Virus record (IMG/VR): IMGVR_UViG_3300022074_000236
Coordinates: 1 to 30,564 of that record
Direction: 5' to 3' (one strand)
Source of the DNA: a virus
DNA length: 30,564 nucleotides
Part shown: one piece after another, positions 17,769-30,564 of the stretch
Layout of the letters: the number at the start of each line of letters is the position of its first letter
Numbering within the stretch: the first letter of the stretch is position 1
The notes under the pieces: model-generated
What the model was told of the DNA's origin: nothing
The model's input: only the letters and a program-made list of their open reading frames with translations
Databases searched by the model: none
Translations under genes and position numbers: made by a program

Positions 17769-20700
17769 TTTAGTAGACGGTGAGGTCGCTCTCAATATAG
17801 CGGATAAGAAATTATACGCTAGAAACGGATCCAATATAATAGAGGTAGCAAACCAGAAACCTAATACAGGTGAAGTGGTTACTACTATGTTTTCCACTGA
17901 CATAACGAATGGTCAGGGGAATACTTTCTATGTTGCCACAGCTGGTTCAGATGTTACAACACTTACAAATGGTGGTGCAAATGGTAAGCACCCAGATACT
18001 CCATTTGTTACTATTACAAAGGCACTTACTACTGCAACTTCGGGAGATACAATTTTAGTTGCACCAGGCGAGTATCAAGAAGTCTTCCCAATGACTGTTC
18101 CTGATGGTGTTACAATACGTGGAACAAATTTAAGATCCACATCTGTAAAACCAACAAACGCAACACAGTCAAATACTGCGTTTATAATGTCTGGTGATTC
18201 TCACCTTTCAGATATGACTATCAAAGATTTCTTCTATGATAGTGGTAACGATGATGGATATGCATTTGAAATAGTATCAAGTATGAACTCTACACAGAGT
18301 CCTTACATTGAGAGAGTTACAGTTAATACAAAAGGTAGTGTAGTATCTGGTTCTGATCCTTATGGATATGCACAAGGAGATGCAGGACGTGGTGCTAAAC
18401 TTGATGGTGCAAACTTAAACGCTGCATCACAGCATAGTTCAGTTCTATTCAATGAGTGTACCTTTATTACTCCTAATCAGATTGGTGTAAAAGCAACTAA
18501 TGGTATTAGAGTTGAATGGTTAAATTGCTTCAACTATTTTGCATCTATCGGTATTCAAGGTCTTCAGGGTGCTACAGGTAAAGCTGGAGCAGGACAAACT
18601 AGATTAAAATTTGGTGGTGTTAGTGGAACATTCTCCGCATCTGAAGTTGCGTATCAGTTAGAAAATGGATTTCAGTCAGGAACTTATACAAGATCAAGCA
18701 CTACAGTAACTTTAACTAGAACTGCACATGGTTTAGTAAGTAATGATTACATCTATGCAGACTTCATCAGTGGTGGTGCTACAGATGGATTTTATCAAGT
18801 AACTAAGGTAGATAATGATAATGTAACCTTTACATCAGGATCTGGTACTATATCCTCAAGCAATGTAACTTATAAGAAAGCGGTTGGTCGTGGTGTAGTT
18901 GCTAGTAATGATGGAACTTACGTATTCATTACAGGAAAAGGAACTGGAGAGTTTGTAACTGTAAACAAATCACCTAAAACTTTAAGTAGATTTGGTGACT
19001 CACAGTTAGATACAGCACAAAAGAAATTTGGATCATCATCTATATTATTAGACGGAACAGAAGATAATGTAAAGGTTCCAACTGATGAAGACTTTGGATT
19101 TGGTACTGCGAACTTCTGCGTAGAAGCATTCATAAGACCTGGCAGTGTAACAGGCATACAGAGAATATTTGACCTTAGAGATGCATCTGCTACAGATACA
19201 GCACCGACTGTATATCTTAATGGAACTGCATTGCATTTTGCAGTAGGCAATACATCACAGATAAACGGTGGAACATTAGCAACTGGAACTTGGTATCATG
19301 TTGCTGTTGCAAGAAATGCAGGAACAACAAAATTATTTTTAGATGGAACTGAGATAGGAACATATACAGACGCTAATGACTATGGATCTACAACTCCTGT
19401 TGTCATAGGTTCAGATTATCAGGCATCTCCTACAGAAGCATTCAACGGACATGTTGACGAAGTGAGGATTAGTAAAGGTGCTGCTCGTTTTACTGCAGGA
19501 TTTACTCCTACAACAACTGAATACTCATCAGATCTGAATACAGTGCTATTGCTACATGCAAACGGTACAGACGCTTCTACGACCTTTACAGACGCATCTG
19601 GTGGAACATCTGATATTAGATCTAGTGGTGGTGATTCTGCTACATCTGTTATCACTGCTGACTACTCTCAGTTTGGTGCTGAAATTCGTTCAGTGGGATC
19701 TGCATGTGTATATGGACAGAAAGGTGCACAGGCAGATGGTTCTGGAGCAAAACTAATTCTTACATCACATAACTTTGCTTATGTTGGATCTGGTGCAGAC
19801 TTTACGAATGACCCATCTCTCGCTGTTCAGAATAATGAAGTAGAAGAACTCAATAGTGGTCAAGTATTATTCTCTTCTACAGACCATCTTGGTGATTTCC
19901 GTGTTGGTGATGCACTTACAGTTGACGTATCAACTGGTAGTGTAAACTTTGCAGCATCATCAACAGCTCAGTCAGCTGCAAACATCACATTAAGCGATGC
20001 TACTGGAACGACTAACATATTCCCTGCATATATTGAGACAGGTAATTTAAGATTAGCAGGAAATAGTATCACATCTACCACAGGTCAGGTAATTGTTGAC
20101 CCCTCTGGTGAAGAAGACTTTGTTGTTAACGCTGAGACAATCGTTAAAGATGCCATATATTTTGATGTTAATAAGTCAATATCATTTGGTAGCACAACTC
20201 AAGGTTCATTAAAAATTGGTGGATTTGGTGGTAGCACAGTATTTGGTGCTTCAGAAGCATCTACTTTCTCAACAAGATCACTTACTGTTCTTAGAAATGG
20301 TATTGGAAGTGTTAACATAACTGGTGCAGGAACAGGATACACTGGTGGTGCACAACCAACAACCGTAATTACAGATCCTTTCCAAAAAGGAACTGTATCC
20401 AATACTATCGCCACAGTTGGTAGTCTTAAAAGAATAAATCTAACTAACAGAGGTTCTGGTTATACAGATGCACCAACTGTAGCATTTGACTCTGGATCAG
20501 GAGTTGCTACTGCGGTTCTGTCAACAGGTGGTAAAGTTGTTGGAATAACAATATCAGCTGGTGGAACTGGATATACATCTGGAACAATTACTGTTACAGT
20601 GGATGCACCATCAGAACAAATTTTTTCTGGAGGAATAACTTCTGTCAACACAACTGCTAATACAGTCACATTAAACAATCATCCATTTGAGACTGGAGAC

Positions 20701-23700
20701 GAAGTTACATATGATGCAACAACTCTTGATGCAACTGCAACTGCTATTGGTGGATTAACTACAGCAACAAATTATTTTGCTATTCGTGTTGATGATAATA
20801 CAATAAAACTCGCATTAAATTTAACTAATGCTAATAATGGAACAGCAATATCACTAACATCCACAGGAACTTTACAGCAATTTTTTAAAGGTCAAACAGC
20901 AGTTGTTGGAACTCCTACAATTTCTGCAGGAGTTGTTACAGCAATACCTCTTACAAGTGGAGGAAATGGATATACTAACGCACCTGGTATTAATATTACT
21001 GACTCAGGAAGTGGACTTAACGCTCAAGCACTTCCGACTTTTGGTAGATCAGTATCATCTATTACTATAGACACAGCAGGATCTTATGCATCTGCCCCTA
21101 CTCTTTCGTTCACACCCGTAGCGGGAGATACAACTGGAGCAAATGCTGCAGGAACACCCATTTTGGGATTTGCGGTTGCTACAGTTACATTAGCAACTCA
21201 AGGTTTAGGATATAGAAGTATACCAACTGTAAAAATAACTCAAAGTGGAGACGCACCAACAACTGAAGCAATACTTGCTTTAACTTTAGACGAGCAAACT
21301 GGTAAACTTGCAACTATAACAATAACTAGTGCAGGAGAAGGATATGAAGCTAATCCAACTATCACTCTTGAAGGTGGTGGTGGTAATGGAGGAGTTCTTA
21401 GTGTAAATGTTCAGTCATTGACTGGATCAATAACCGCTACTGGATCAGGATATTTGCCTGGCACATATAACAACGTAGGTTGGACAGGATCTGCAAGTGG
21501 AACTAGCGGAACTGCAACATTTACTGTGCCTGGTCTTCAAGGAGTTATTACTGCAGCAGGATCTGGTTATAAAGACGCTCTTCCATATAGTATTGAGTTT
21601 AGAAACGCTCCGACTACAACTTATACTATGACAGTTGTTCAGAGAGATAAACTTGGTCTTATAGGTGCTGTTACAAACGGACCTTTCCAAGTTGGTGAAA
21701 CTGTTACTACAAATGGAGCTGGAAGTGGTTCAGGAACTGTTAGTGCAGTTGGAACTGACTTTTTATATTTGAGCAATGTTACTGGAACATTCCAAGGTGG
21801 GCAAACAGAAACTGTAACTGGTGGAACTTCAAATGCATCTGCTAGTCTTGATAGTTTTGGAAGTGGACTTAATAGATATCTGGTCAATGGTGCTGAGGGA
21901 CAAAGTTTAACACTACTTGACGACAACACATATAAATTTGACATATCCGATTCCAGTATGGGAGGGCACCCCCTAGCACTTGGCGATACTATTGATAAAG
22001 TTACTACAAGGACTTATGGAACAACAGGTACTGCAGGAGCATATTTTGAGGTAATTTGTGCAAATGGTGTAGCTGCATTGAGCACAACCACATATCTTAA
22101 TTGTACAGTTCATGGTCAAAGCATGATTGAACCTGGCACAGTGTCTTTTGCAACTGGAGCTGCAGGACAAAGTGGAAGTGGAATGACTGCAGATGTAACT
22201 GTATCCAGTGGTGCAGTAACTGCGGTAACACTTACTAACCAAGGTTCAAACGCTAAAGTCGGTGATGCATTAATCGTTGATCCTATTGATTTAGGTGATG
22301 CAACTGGATCTGGATTCATATTTACACTAAACTCAAACAATACAGGTATTGCAACTGTATCAAATATATCTTTAGCTGGAGATAATTATGTTATTGGAGA
22401 GGTATTAAGTGTTGACGATAGCAGCGTTGGTTCAGCTGGTGGTTCTGGATTCCAATATACTGTAAGTAATGTAGGTTTTGTATCTTCAGTAACTATACAA
22501 GATGCTGGTCAAGCATATGAACTTGCTGATACTTTAATATTAGGTGAAGTTGGTGGTGCAAGTATTGCACAAGGAACTGGTTTTTCTGCTACCCTCGCAA
22601 CAATAAACCCAATTAAAGCTCTTGAGTTAACTCAAGCGGGTGATCTAAACATGGGTGTAGGTGGTGGGTCACAAATGTCCCTAAAACCAGAGGGATCTAT
22701 TACAGCAACATCATGGAGTATCAATGCATCTGGTATATCACAACTTGCTTCAGTTACCACTAGTGGTAATATATCTGCATCAGGAACTCTTTCTGCTAAC
22801 TCAACTTCTGCATTTACAGGAAGAGGAACCTTCAATGGTGGCATAACTGTAAGTGGTGCAGACTCATCAATAGACAGAGTAAATATAAAAATCTTAGATG
22901 GTAGTGCTACTGCACCTTCACTTACATTCTCTGATACTGGTTCTGCTCAAACAGGATTTTTCAAATCAGCTACAAATAAAATTGGTGTTAGTCTTGGTGG
23001 AACTGAAGGTGTTCGATTTGATGGAACAGATTATATTAGCACTATAGGATTACAAGTTGATTCGACTCTTGGTAATTTAAATCCATTTTTAAAAGTAGAA
23101 ACTACAACTCCTAAGTTATCAATAGGTACTGCTGCCACACAAATAGAAATTAATAACGCAACAACCATTAGCACAGGAGGAACAGATATTGATGTTCCTC
23201 TAACTTTTGACACTAAAGGTGGTGGAGATTACACATTTAAAGGTGGTGCAAACGTTGACTTTATTGTTGATGATGGAACAACAGAAGTATTCAAATTAGA
23301 AACATCTACAGGAACTGCATTATTCAGTGGTAATTTAGATGCAGGAAAATTAAGAGTTAGACAAAATGTTGTAAGTAACAATAGTTCTGCAGCGGTAAGA
23401 TCCTTTGGTGAGGTTGTTGCACTAACAGTTACTGGAACTGGATCTGGATATACAGATGGAACATATACAGGAACAGCAACCACTTCAACAGGTGGTGGAA
23501 CTGGATGTACAGTTACAGTCACAGTTGCTTCGGGAACATTCTCAGCAGTTACTATAGTTGCGAAAGGACAAAACTATGCAATAGGTGACACTCTTCTAAT
23601 CACTGCAGCTGGTGGTGGATCTGGTTTAACAATTACTGTATCCGACATTGATGGTCAAGGTGTTGTATTAAAACCATCGGCAGGAAAAGATGTTCTAGTT

Positions 23701-25512: not shown

Positions 25513-28500
25513 ATGAGTTTTCAGATTAATGCCGACCAACAGCGAATTGAAGCTAGCGGATCAAAAGCGACAGGAAATTGGACGAATGCCACATACAGCA
25601 GAACAGCAGCTGGTGTAGGTAACATAGTTTCTGTTGCACATGGTATTATAGGCACAGAAACGTTATATCTTGATTTCACATCTGGCGGTGAAGTAGATGG
25701 CAATTTTACAGTAACAAAAGTAGACGACGATAATTTAAGTTTTACAGGTTCCGCAAACAGTGTAATTACAGCGGGTGCTGGTGTAGCATATAAGAGAGTA
25801 AGATCATTAAGTATCCAAGGAGATACATCTATAGAAGTATCTGTTGGAACAGGTGCACTAGAGAAAGACGCATTATTCATAAACAAAAATGCACAGGAAA
25901 ACGTAAGAATTGGTGTTAATACTAACGATCCTCAGTATGAACTTGATGTAGAAGGTCAGATCAGAACGACTCGTTCTATCATTTCTGATACTGCACAGGT
26001 TACAAACCTCGATATTGATACTATTATCAACCCTGCGTTAAATCTTCGTGCTCCAAACTTAATTAACTTTGAAGATACAGACGTAACAAGTCCTACTTTT
26101 GGAACTATATTTAATCCAACTGCTGATACACCTCCTTTAAGTGATCAGTCCAGAAGAGTTGCTACCACTGACTTTGTATATAAAGTTGCTACTAATGACA
26201 CTGGTGGTCGTGTTTACGTATCACAGACTATTGGTAGTGATCTAAACGATGGTCGTTCAGCTGCAAGACCTGTTCAAACAGTTAAGAAAGCAGCACAGAT
26301 TGCTTATGGATTACAGAAAGCAACCCCAGATGCAAGTGACGAATACGTAACTATCATCGTATCTGGTGGTGAGTATCTAGAAGATAACCCAATTTCACTT
26401 CCTAGAAACTGTTCACTTGTTGGTGACAACCTACGTCGTGTAATCATGCGTCCTGCAAATCAGGATCGTCATATGATTAAGGCGTCTAACGAAACATACA
26501 TCTTTGGTGTTGTATTCAGAGACGCATTACAGAACGCATCAGACCCACAGAGTACAGTAATTCATACTTGGAAGTATGCTTTTGTGTTTGATGACAAACA
26601 AAGATTATACTACGAACCAGAAATATCACAGATCCCTGCAATACCTGGCGATAAGTTCCGTGGTGATAACATATTCAAAGTTACATTTAACAACCACACA
26701 GGTAGTAACACAACTCTAGTAGTTGGACACTTTTTACAAGGTGGATCTTCAGGAACACTAGGTACAGTTCAGGCAATCAACTTTACAGGTCCTGTTGCAT
26801 CACCTTACTCTACAGGTGATATTACGGTTCTTATTACATCAGGTATTAACGATGTATTCCAAGATGCTGAAAAAATATTCTATGATGCTGTAGCAGCAAA
26901 TATCATTACTGACCTTAACAATGCGGGTGTATCAGATAGGTTTGACGTTGTTGATGCTGAATCATTAAGACCAGAACTAGAGACAATCTCTAATCAAATT
27001 TATCAGCACACTGTTGATACAGAAAGAGAAGTAGTATCATTTAGAGGCAGCACTAATTATATCAATATAACAACTGATAGAATTACTATTACTGCACACG
27101 GTTTATTAACTGGTGATCAAGTTGTATACAGTAAAGATGAGAATACAACTCCACTACCAGGTTTAATTGATACTACTCGTTACTGGGTAAGAAAGGTAGA
27201 TGATAATACTATTGAATTATATGATACTGAAGCAAATGCTATTGCAAATACAACTCTAACTCAGGGTAGAAAAGATCTTACAGGTGTATCTGCCGATGAT
27301 AAGTTCCATGAGTTGACAACTGGTAATGTGATGCCAGAAGACAATCACATTTATGTCAGCAGTCATCAGTATACAACTGGAGATGGTGTCATATATCGTG
27401 CAGGAAAAATGGGCGGTATCGCTGGTCTTGTTGACGGAACTGCATACTTTGTTTATAAAGAAAGCGATAACTGGTTCAGACTTGCATCATCTGCTGCTAA
27501 CGCAACACAAAAAAATGCATCAGGTGCTGATGATCCTGTAACATTACCTATAACATCCACTGGTGTAGGTTTCCAAAGATTTGAATTACAAGATAAATTA
27601 CTATCAATATCAACGATTGATACATCACTGAATACCATATCAACATATAATGGTCCTATATTCACATTAGCAAGTTCTTCTGTATCATCTGATTTCCATG
27701 ATTATGAAGTTGGACAAGAAGTTAATGTTTATGGTTTCCAAAACAGTGCAATAAACTTTGGAACAGGAACTAATAGCACTTACAGTATTACTGGTGGATT
27801 GATTACAATTTCAATTACAGGTGTAGATAACTCACTTACCAGTGCGTTCTTTGGCAACATGGCATCATTGGGTCAAGCTGGTGTTACATTTGCATTTCCT
27901 GGCTCTGATGCAAGATTTAATAAGACCTACCATATTGGAGCATTTGATACAGGATCTGGAACTCCAACATTACCAGGCAATACTGATTTAGGTAGAGGTG
28001 CAGGAAGATATAACAGTTCTAACACAACAATTACATTTGTATTAAAACAAGCAAACATTGATACCGCAAGTGATGTATCTACATCATCTGGAACTGGTGT
28101 TTCTGTTCTTAATAACTTAGAAGATCTTAATGGTAGAAAGTATATTACACATCGTATTGAACGTGCTGATGGTTACTCACTACAGTTTGTTGTAAGAGCA
28201 AATATATCAGAAATTAGTGCTAGTCTTGATGCAACTGGTAACCAAACTGTTGTTGGATCAAACAACTATGTTCTAGCATCTCTTCGTAACTCACCATATG
28301 GATTTACTAAGATCAACCAAAGTGATAGATTTAGAGATGGTGCTGAGAATATCAAAAACAACCAAGAATTTATTGCAGAGGAGTCAGTCGGTTATGTCAA
28401 ATATTATTATGAATCATCCGCTACTCGTGGTACTGCACTTACTATTGGTGGAACAAACTTTGGACAAGTAGCAGCAACTGTTGCAAGATCAGTTACATCA

Positions 28501-30564
28501 TGGTCTATAACTGGTGATAAAGCAACTGTCAAGATTCAAAAAGGACACAACTTATATCCTAGTTTCAGTCAGCATACTCCAAGTGCTGCAACATACACTC
28601 CTGCAAGTGGTGTATTAGAAGTAACAATTACTGGTCATGGATTTAGTAATGGAGACCTAATTAAATTTGATGCGGGTGCATTAGTATTTACTTGTACAAC
28701 AGATAGCAACCAAACCAAGCATCCATATCCAAGAGGATCAGATCCTGCATTTGATAAGTGGTTAGCAATATCTAATAAAACAAATGATACCTTTGAAGTT
28801 AACGTTGGTGTATCTAGCGACACTTCAACCCATACACTTGTAAGTGCGGGAACTAACTCACTTAAGAAAGCATTAACATCTGCTGTAACCTTTACAGGAA
28901 CTGGTAACGCTACACTTAATGGAACTCATGGTATCCAAGACATCTATGATGATAGAGAATTTACAGTAGACCTACCAGACAGCACACAGAACGGACAGTC
29001 TGGAACTGGTGGAACATTCACAGATAATCAGCAACCATTCAGAACTCCTAATAGTAAGGATCAAGGTAACAAATATAGTGACGTTTCTGAATTACTATTT
29101 GCTAACGCAGACATGATTGCAGACTATGCAGTCAATAAAATGCTTGCTGCAAATCCAAGTTACACAATACCTACAGGCAATACTGCATGCTATGATGATG
29201 TCAGAGACTTTATACAAAAGTGTGTAGCACATAACCTCAAATGGGGTGGTAACGATAGAGTATTTGATCAGGCAAAATTCTATATTGATCCTGGTTTCTC
29301 ATTAACAAGAGATCGTTATTCAGAAGTATTTGGATATGCAAAAGATGCTTGTATTTTAGCAGGAAGAAATCTACCATTATACAGAAATCCTCACGCTACA
29401 AAATTACAATACTATCATAATGCAACTCTTGACACAGGTGCAGGGACAGTTCGTCGTGACGCTGCAACTCTAATACAAAAAAACCTTGAGTTTATTGCAT
29501 TTGAAGCAGTTCAACAATATAATATAGACAACCCATCCCACAATGTGCCAGGTGGAAACCAGAATTGTATTGACGATGCTTTAGATGTATTACGTGCTGT
29601 TACTTACAACCTAGCATACGGTGGTAACGAGCAAGTTTATGATGCTGCAAATCTATATGTTGCATCAACATTCTTAGACGGAGAAGAGACAGAATCACGT
29701 GCAGTATTCCAATTAGTAAAAACAATTGCAAAACAAGTTCTAGAAAGTCAGACTGTTACTGTTGAGGGTAATCATGGATTTACTCAGGTAACTGATAACA
29801 CTAATAAAGGAACATCTGTTGAAGCAACATTGGTAGAAGGATTCTTCACAATCATTGACACTGCTATCGCTAACGATAACATGTCACATGCCACTAGAAC
29901 GGTTGCAACCAACCCATCTTGTGCAAATGTCATCTCAGCAATTACAACCTTCTTCAGCACCGTTACAACAGCGATAGGAAGCGGTTCTACTGCAGGATCT
30001 GTATCCAGTGTTACAAGAACACCTTCACCTGGCGATCAACAGTGTATTGATGACGTCATGAAGATTACTAGAGCATTCCAGTATGACTTACGTTATGGTG
30101 GTAACTCTAAGATTGTTGAAGCAGCAAACTTATACATCTCTGGAGCAAGTGGTGTTCAGCACGTTGCAACTGAGGTCACATACACTCGTGCAATATTTGC
30201 AGCAGCAAAAGAATTATCAATAGACGCAATAAGAAATAATTTAGAGAATGGTCAGTTCTCACAAATACTTCCTAGATCAAATGGTTCGATTACTGTAGAT
30301 TCATCTGCACCTGAATGTGCTAACGTTGTATCTGCATTGACTACAAACTGGGGTATCCTTGATAACGTATTATCAAGTGGTAACGCATACAGTGGAACTA
30401 CAACAAATCCTGATCCTTTAGTTACAGAACAAGATCAGTCTAGTTACAATTTCCCACTAGTAAACACATTCCTAGATCTTCCAGTTATTGAAGCATCTCC
30501 TTATATTCAGAACTCTTCACTTATATCATTCCTTGGTGGTTCTGGTTGTGAAATTGATGGTGCT
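25513..30564 (+). CDS. Giant fibre-like virion protein, 3'-partial
   Basis: Open from ATG 25513 to the last base: 1684 codons with no stop, so the C-terminus is outside the window. The start is fixed by an in-frame TAA at 25495-25497 and an AGGAA at 25504. Modules in order: a 'LYLDFTSGGEVDGNF' beta module (about 16-95); a fibre-shaft motif 'VRIGVNTNDPQYELDVEGQI' (about 130-150) and 'RRVATTDFVY'; a beta-helix start 'VYVSQTIGSDLNDGRS', 'TIIVSGGEYLEDNP' (about 230-320); two 'HGLLTGDQVVY...VDDNTIEL'-type modules; one YPR/DP module (28585-28872); and three cysteine-containing helical YGGN modules (29071 onward). No catalytic motif was seen. It is probably a long tail fibre or baseplate-associated protein and closely resembles the left-edge protein in its modules. 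Confidence 0.85.
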   Translation, partial: MSFQINADQQRIEASGSKATGNWTNATYSRTAAGVGNIVSVAHGIIGTETLYLDFTSGGEVDGNFTVTKVDDDNLSFTGSANSVITAGAGVAYKRVRSLSIQGDTSIEVSVGTGALEKDALFINKNAQENVRIGVNTNDPQYELDVEGQIRTTRSIISDTAQVTNLDIDTIINPALNLRAPNLINFEDTDVTSPTFGTIFNPTADTPPLSDQSRRVATTDFVYKVATNDTGGRVYVSQTIGSDLNDGRSAARPVQTVKKAAQIAYGLQKATPDASDEYVTIIVSGGEYLEDNPISLPRNCSLVGDNLRRVIMRPANQDRHMIKASNETYIFGVVFRDALQNASDPQSTVIHTWKYAFVFDDKQRLYYEPEISQIPAIPGDKFRGDNIFKVTFNNHTGSNTTLVVGHFLQGGSSGTLGTVQAINFTGPVASPYSTGDITVLITSGINDVFQDAEKIFYDAVAANIITDLNNAGVSDRFDVVDAESLRPELETISNQIYQHTVDTEREVVSFRGSTNYINITTDRITITAHGLLTGDQVVYSKDENTTPLPGLIDTTRYWVRKVDDNTIELYDTEANAIANTTLTQGRKDLTGVSADDKFHELTTGNVMPEDNHIYVSSHQYTTGDGVIYRAGKMGGIAGLVDGTAYFVYKESDNWFRLASSAANATQKNASGADDPVTLPITSTGVGFQRFELQDKLLSISTIDTSLNTISTYNGPIFTLASSSVSSDFHDYEVGQEVNVYGFQNSAINFGTGTNSTYSITGGLITISITGVDNSLTSAFFGNMASLGQAGVTFAFPGSDARFNKTYHIGAFDTGSGTPTLPGNTDLGRGAGRYNSSNTTITFVLKQANIDTASDVSTSSGTGVSVLNNLEDLNGRKYITHRIERADGYSLQFVVRANISEISASLDATGNQTVVGSNNYVLASLRNSPYGFTKINQSDRFRDGAENIKNNQEFIAEESVGYVKYYYESSATRGTALTIGGTNFGQVAATVARSVTSWSITGDKATVKIQKGHNLYPSFSQHTPSAATYTPASGVLEVTITGHGFSNGDLIKFDAGALVFTCTTDSNQTKHPYPRGSDPAFDKWLAISNKTNDTFEVNVGVSSDTSTHTLVSAGTNSLKKALTSAVTFTGTGNATLNGTHGIQDIYDDREFTVDLPDSTQNGQSGTGGTFTDNQQPFRTPNSKDQGNKYSDVSELLFANADMIADYAVNKMLAANPSYTIPTGNTACYDDVRDFIQKCVAHNLKWGGNDRVFDQAKFYIDPGFSLTRDRYSEVFGYAKDACILAGRNLPLYRNPHATKLQYYHNATLDTGAGTVRRDAATLIQKNLEFIAFEAVQQYNIDNPSHNVPGGNQNCIDDALDVLRAVTYNLAYGGNEQVYDAANLYVASTFLDGEETESRAVFQLVKTIAKQVLESQTVTVEGNHGFTQVTDNTNKGTSVEATLVEGFFTIIDTAIANDNMSHATRTVATNPSCANVISAITTFFSTVTTAIGSGSTAGSVSSVTRTPSPGDQQCIDDVMKITRAFQYDLRYGGNSKIVEAANLYISGASGVQHVATEVTYTRAIFAAAKELSIDAIRNNLENGQFSQILPRSNGSITVDSSAPECANVVSALTTNWGILDNVLSSGNAYSGTTTNPDPLVTEQDQSSYNFPLVNTFLDLPVIEASPYIQNSSLISFLGGSGCEIDGA
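28585..28872 (+). repeat. Seventh YPR/DP module, in the right-edge giant protein
   Basis: Shows 'TYTPASGVLEVTITGHGF', 'LVFTCTTDSNQTKHPYPRG', 'DP', 'TFEVNVG' and 'STHTLVSAG' in the same order as the six copies about 23 kb to the left. Confidence 0.85.
29071..30400 (+). repeat. Helical YGGN modules copies C, D and E
   Basis: Three tandem copies in the right-edge protein. C (about 29071-29397) has 'CYDDVRDFI' and 'NLKWGGNDRVFDQAKFYI'. D (about 29461-29998) has 'CIDDALDVL', 'NLAYGGNEQVYDAANLYV', 'LDGEETESRAVF' and 'CANVISAITTF'. E (about 30031-30400) has 'CIDDVMKIT', 'DLRYGGNSKIVEAANLYI' and 'CANVVSALTTNW'. Confidence 0.8.

Follow-up and report, generated by a model that had tools for sequence, protein, structure and literature searches.

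Within a 30,564-nt stretch of viral DNA (IMG/VR record IMGVR_UViG_3300022074_000236, hereafter the window), we found that a protein resembling cyanophage gp7 carries a domain that, judged from its sequence, is probably a divergent member or a close sister of the plastocyanin/azurin (type 1 copper) superfamily. This domain would be a beta-sandwich module placed in a probably outward-facing, variable part of the protein and would contain a putative site for one metal ion, made up of His1421, Cys1466, His1469 and Met1473. Copper proteins of the type 1 superfamily are known as cellular electron carriers, and the open-licence papers searched describe no cupredoxin, plastocyanin or blue copper domain in a phage structural protein. 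The domain is carried by hundreds of marine phage contigs and is unnamed in the annotation libraries searched. If copper is bound, a transition metal would be a built-in component of marine virus particles, with a bearing on phage attachment, virion stability and trace-metal cycling.

The domain lies in the variable middle of a gp7-like virion protein

The second half of the 30.6-kb viral record is 82-86% identical at the DNA level, over ~80% of its length, to the Prochlorococcus myoviruses P-HM1, P-HM2 and MED4-213. The carrier of the domain is a long ORF with an end-to-end match to PHROG 32294 'baseplate wedge subunit', whose counterparts in P-HM2 and P-HM1 are named gp7, baseplate wedge initiator. 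Identity between relatives was mostly 40-80% in the middle of the protein compared with 67-97% in most of its N-terminal part, so that two well conserved ends enclose a hypervariable middle, which holds the cupredoxin-like domain; the DNA of these relatives is 82-86% identical over most of the region. Such conserved ends around a variable middle would be the layout expected of an outward-facing adhesion part, and the protein also has a LamG domain, which is lectin-like. The original prediction had called this protein a tail fibre. As an annotation that name found no support, the catalogues giving baseplate wedge subunit/gp7, but 'fibre' may be functionally right despite this cataloguing, the LamG domain and the variable middle being fibre-like traits. 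The coordinates of the protein and of its features are listed in Table 1.

Table 1. Features of the gp7-like protein in the window
Feature	Position	Strand	Basis
gp7-like ORF, 2410 aa	17707..24939	+	homolog of cyanophage 'gp7 / baseplate wedge initiator'
LamG / concanavalin A-like domain (Laminin_G_3, aa 449-592)	19051..19482	+	PF13385, E=8.2e-21
Variable middle region, aa ~861-1860	20287..23286	+	block-wise identity to full-length relatives
Cupredoxin-like domain, ~aa 1388-1482 (NRYLVNG ... GTVSFA)	21868..22152	+	profile boundaries, AlphaFold2 model
His1421 in GGHPL, first putative metal ligand	21967..21969	+	just before predicted strand; ~97% conserved in family
Cys1466 in NCTVHGQSM, putative thiolate ligand	22102..22104	+	end of penultimate predicted strand; invariant in ligand-bearing members
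His1469, putative ligand, C-x2-H	22111..22113	+	conservation in family
Met1473, putative axial ligand, H-x3-M	22123..22125	+	conservation in family

The annotation of MED4-213 divides the gp7-like gene into two CDS (L529, NC_020845.1 38175-38645). The motif-bearing piece begins past the break and the longest frames of the two parts differ; the split could be either a natural break or a sequencing frameshift.

The four residues follow the ligand pattern of type 1 copper proteins

Type 1 copper proteins, for example plastocyanin, use His, Cys, His and Met as ligands. The four residues from which a copper site had originally been proposed were located in the ORF exactly at the positions given for them, with the segment GTAGAYFEV between GGHPL and NCTVHGQSM and a spacing of H-45-C-x2-H-x3-M. 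Both the order His, Cys, His, Met and the form C-x(2-4)-H-x(2-4)-M, taken as the ligand test for the type 1 copper family, were thus found. The 2410 residues of the protein include only 9 Cys, 15 His and 14 Met, and the pattern H-x38..52-C-x2-H-x2..4-M occurred once in the protein and in 2 out of 20,000 shuffles of it. The spaced pattern is therefore real and unlikely to result from composition, although a single protein alone is insufficient as proof of a site.

The four residues are kept or lost nearly always together

Ligand columns were among the most conserved of the family when 137 domains were compared at 85% redundancy, with Cys present in 100%, the second His in 99% and the first His in 97%. 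Met followed the second His two residues later (H-x2-M) in 106 of these domains and three residues later (H-x3-M) in 21. To avoid circularity, the profile was rebuilt with the ligand columns masked and the search was repeated. Among the 179 non-redundant domains obtained with this ligand-blind profile, 145 carried the complete H+C+H+M set, 27 carried none of it and seven had the first His only, while Cys, His and Met without the first His were seen in 0 of the 179. In two of the seven His-only domains Cys and His are still present, with a short insertion between them. The expectation that these residues would be conserved in homologous marine phage proteins was thus borne out, and their near all-or-none behaviour is the strongest evidence that the sequences offer in favour of a putative site.

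On a tree built without the ligand columns, the C/H/M state changed ~7 times and that of the first His 4 times. The Fisher p value for joint loss (7e-26) overstates independence, because a single clade of Synechococcus phage fibre proteins (A3 family: L016, L019, L021-L023, L253-L332) contributes many of the ligand-less sequences. Members of this clade retained the TYRFDVSDSSM block and the fold and lost Cys, His and Met together, in most cases with the first His too. Further separate losses affected second copies in Flavobacteriaceae proteins and other single loci. A ligand-less Synechococcus phage paralog (S-IOM18 R9TLP4, S-RIM2, ACG-2014a) is like the window domain in its fold, according to Foldseek in BFVD, and in its TYRFDVSDSSM block, and differs from it in the absence of Cys, second His and Met and, usually, of the first His. 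These ligand-less members suggest that some phages dispense with the site and that a metal may not be needed for the module everywhere.

Conservation was also apparent close to the window protein. Across 11 full-length relatives, several of them near-identical, all four putative ligands were invariant in blocks that are 45-78% identical, unlike the adjoining Cys1451, which is V or L in the same relatives. The N-terminal block TYRFDxSDxS was as conserved as the ligand columns.

Profiles link the domain to the plastocyanin/azurin family

We compared the viral profile with PF00127 (plastocyanin/azurin), represented by 87 sequences from cyanobacteria, the phylum of the SAR116 genome and archaea. 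The hhalign probability was 95.2 over 72 columns with the ligands in register, and the score of 45.5 was well separated from those of 100 column shuffles (14.7 or lower). The same comparison yielded probabilities of 1.1 for fn3, 0.2 for Big_2 and 1.0 for PKD, and hence no profile similarity to these three Ig-like families. The CuA domain of cytochrome c oxidase subunit II (COX2, PF00116) belongs to the cupredoxin superfamily and has Cys/His/Met ligands late in the domain as well; it differs by its two Cys and binuclear CuA, and hhalign gave it only 9.9. The spacings C-x2-H-x2-M, x3 and x4 all exist among PF00127 members, and the His-to-Cys distance of 45 is within the range seen in them. Masking all four ligands reduced the probability to 5%, left the register of strands 2-3 unchanged and gave a score of 17.5, still higher than every shuffle. 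The profile similarity to PF00127 thus rests mostly on the ligand columns.

Two cellular proteins bridge both groups. These are 825-aa open frames (L343 and L344) in the genomes of loci L238 and L233, both from Bacteroidetes single cells, which the viral HMM retrieved with 31.6 and 31.4 bits (E ~2.5e-8). L343 has a Pfam Copper-bind match of 32.2 bits (cut-off 21.2) and L344 was also retrieved above the cut-off. Their Copper-bind domain resembles the viral one in SGHPF ... YYYQCSLHNGM, with C-x2-H-x2-M, and is unlike it in belonging to a cellular protein and in the absence of the FDxSDSS block. When the viral HMM was masked, they were still first, with an E-value of 0.002, and were the only sequences above the decoys. 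In the reverse direction, with an HMM of cellular copper proteins, 114 viral-domain sequences outranked the best of 2,740 decoys, although the domain of the window, being too divergent, gave a poor score (E ~4). Capture of a host plastocyanin gene was considered as an origin and rejected, as the closest cellular Copper-bind matches are these Bacteroidetes proteins of the L343 type and not plastocyanin.

Direct searches gave little. The Pfam scan of the window protein returned no match for the cupredoxin-like domain, the curated Copper-bind model included, and across 91 relatives Copper-bind matched six at E<=1 (best 0.0063), which is suggestive only. NCBIfam and Rfam searches gave no matches. 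In the PDB, the single window sequence found chance matches only and no cupredoxin, profile A1 found nothing relevant, and profile A2 found pseudoazurin 3tu6 at E 0.42, a value not significant alone, with only the C..H..M part aligned.

The predicted fold is an all-beta sandwich with the ligand layout of plastocyanin

AlphaFold2 modelled the window domain from 91 sequences with a mean pLDDT of 87.4 and a pTM of 0.80, and a canonical relative (L080) with values of 94.9 and 0.85. Both models are all-beta sandwiches in which a strand begins just after the first His, the last strand but one ends with Cys, and the final loop carries the second His and Met. The ligands of plastocyanin have the same placement relative to the strands. 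When compared with PF00127 (plastocyanin, pseudoazurin, azurin and amicyanin types), the viral domain shares the His...Cys-x2-His-xn-Met ligand set and the strand order beta2-beta3-His-beta4 ... beta7-Cys ... loop ... beta8. It departs from that family in an H-P where H-N is usual at the first His, an extra conserved TYRFDxSDxS block and longer loops, and the window domain also lacks a Pfam match and a confident structural match to a solved cupredoxin.

A Foldseek search of the PDB with both models returned nothing at E<=1e-3 and no cupredoxin in the best 50. The best matches were Ig-like sandwiches whose TM scores did not exceed 0.48 by either length and whose E-values were 0.017 or higher; by query length, TM scores to the listed Ig folds were 0.28-0.46, and these are not confident matches. 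Antibody chains, present in their thousands, may have filled the list, but a cupredoxin of the standard kind would nonetheless be expected to appear in it. Matches at E<=1e-3 in BFVD were mostly other cyanophage structural proteins, ligand-less ones included. For a cupredoxin fold, an eight-stranded Greek-key barrel, the evidence is divided: the ligand set, the profile link and the strand order agree with it, whereas the best 50 PDB structures contain no cupredoxin and are headed by Ig-like folds. On the basis of sequence and ligand layout the domain appears cupredoxin-like and, in the models, structurally divergent, which falls short of proof of the fold.

The domain is widespread in marine phages and occurs in some cellular proteins

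A tblastn search of phage records gave matches in 277 records at an E-value limit of 10, the weakest of which are uncertain; nearly all came from marine cyanophages and a few from phages of Methylophilales and Pelagibacter. Viral contigs scanned with a profile gave more than 550 candidates among the matches listed. The core of the family reads T-Y-[RK]-F-D-x-S-D-x-S-x3-H-P ... G-[TS]-x-G-x-x-G-[AS]-[YF] ... Y-x-C-x2-H-x2-3-M, and several tail-fibre and baseplate PHROGs are matched by proteins that contain copies of the domain. Scanning bacterial and archaeal genomes revealed 26 loci, part of which are phage DNA in single-cell assemblies, as exemplified by L227, a protein whose start resembles that of the window protein. 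Other carriers look cellular and appear to be secreted-type proteins: L229 from Flavobacteriaceae, which also has DUF11/DUF7507 repeats, L245 from SAR116, in which RTX-like and DUF5648 regions are present, and L249 from Prochlorococcus, which contains DUF4214.

Two Flavobacteriaceae proteins of ~1500 aa each (L229 and L247) contain a complete domain near the N-terminus and a degenerate second copy towards the C-terminal part. The degenerate copy of L229 has other residues in place of both His and the Cys.

A proposed role for the domain and its alternatives

In the arrangement that we propose, the predicted strand 'NTYKFD' would run into His1421 and the penultimate strand 'TTTYLN' would terminate in Cys1466, with His1469 and Met1473 following in the last loop, so that the four residues would meet at one site and together hold one metal ion. 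The metal would most likely be copper, acquired after lysis or at the cell surface. The main job of the site would be to lock and shape an exposed virion module, acting as a metal staple in a domain for adhesion or decoration. More tentatively, and at odds somewhat below even, marine phage virions could have as a standard building block a large branch of the type 1 copper superfamily that has escaped annotation, copper-loaded and shaping or arming the variable adhesion region; virions would then bind copper and copper supply could affect their stability or attachment.

The most serious competing explanation, although an unlikely one, is that an Ig-like or other beta-sandwich distinct from cupredoxins gained a His/Cys/His/Met site as a structural staple for Zn, Fe or Cu, and that the cupredoxin likeness of the domain reflects convergence of the ligand motif. 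It would account for the Ig-like folds that head the Foldseek results of both confident models and for the disappearance of most of the PF00127 profile similarity on masking of the ligand columns. Against it stand the hhalign probabilities of only 0.2-1.1% for fn3, Big_2 and PKD, the low query-length TM scores to Ig folds, the bridge proteins, which keep the first rank with masked ligands, and a strand order and ligand positions that follow the cupredoxin plan. It is less probable again that no metal is bound and that the four residues are conserved for another reason, for instance because they help the loop to fold or supply a Cys cross-link between neighbouring fibre chains. The TYRFDxSDxS block, equally conserved with no metal site, and the ligand-less members that keep the fold (R9TLP4) would be compatible with this reading, but the loss is correlated across ~45 positions and involves His and Met, which a cross-link would not need, and the residue set and its spacing are those of known type 1 copper ligands. 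That the likeness arose by chance in a single protein and reflects no conserved feature has practically no probability left: the window domain alone lacks a significant Pfam or PDB sequence match, as chance would predict, but the shuffling result and the conservation across hundreds of loci refute it.

A last alternative, which we consider improbable and slightly more so than a non-metal role, is an electron-transfer or copper-delivery module that hands copper to a host receptor, as a copper 'Ferrojan Horse', or exchanges electrons with host surface proteins. Its appeal lies in the type 1-like ligand set and in the precedent of iron-binding HxH motifs proposed in marine phage tail fibres under the Ferrojan Horse hypothesis (PMC11705849), the closest concept among the papers searched. 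Those motifs would likewise mean transition-metal binding by a marine phage adhesion protein, although an HxH iron motif is different from the His/Cys/His/Met site of the cupredoxin-like domain. Electron transfer seems less likely because the domain stands alone as an insert between beta repeats and no redox partner is evident, and homologs are found in phages of hosts as dissimilar as Prochlorococcus and Pelagibacter, as well as in cellular surface proteins. Nothing in the analysis spoke for or against redox sensing or contact with host copper proteins, which the original prediction had raised. The preferred reading, an external structural or binding role of a metal-stapled module, fits better with a site that is kept in a variable region, with its modular spread across different fibre proteins and with the secreted-type cellular carriers.

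A phycobilisome-like stretch in another protein of the window

A cyanophage tail-fibre-like protein encoded at 25513-30564 of the window has a match to Pfam Phycobilisome (PF00502; E 1e-7, 32.5 bits, cut-off 22.2) in two stretches, one of them at aa ~1311-1374. A sequence search of solved structures gave no match for the Phycobilisome-like stretch. The repeats CIDDALDVLRAVTYNLAYGG and CIDDVMKITRAFQYDLRYGG of this protein show likeness to the Cys helix of phycobiliproteins.
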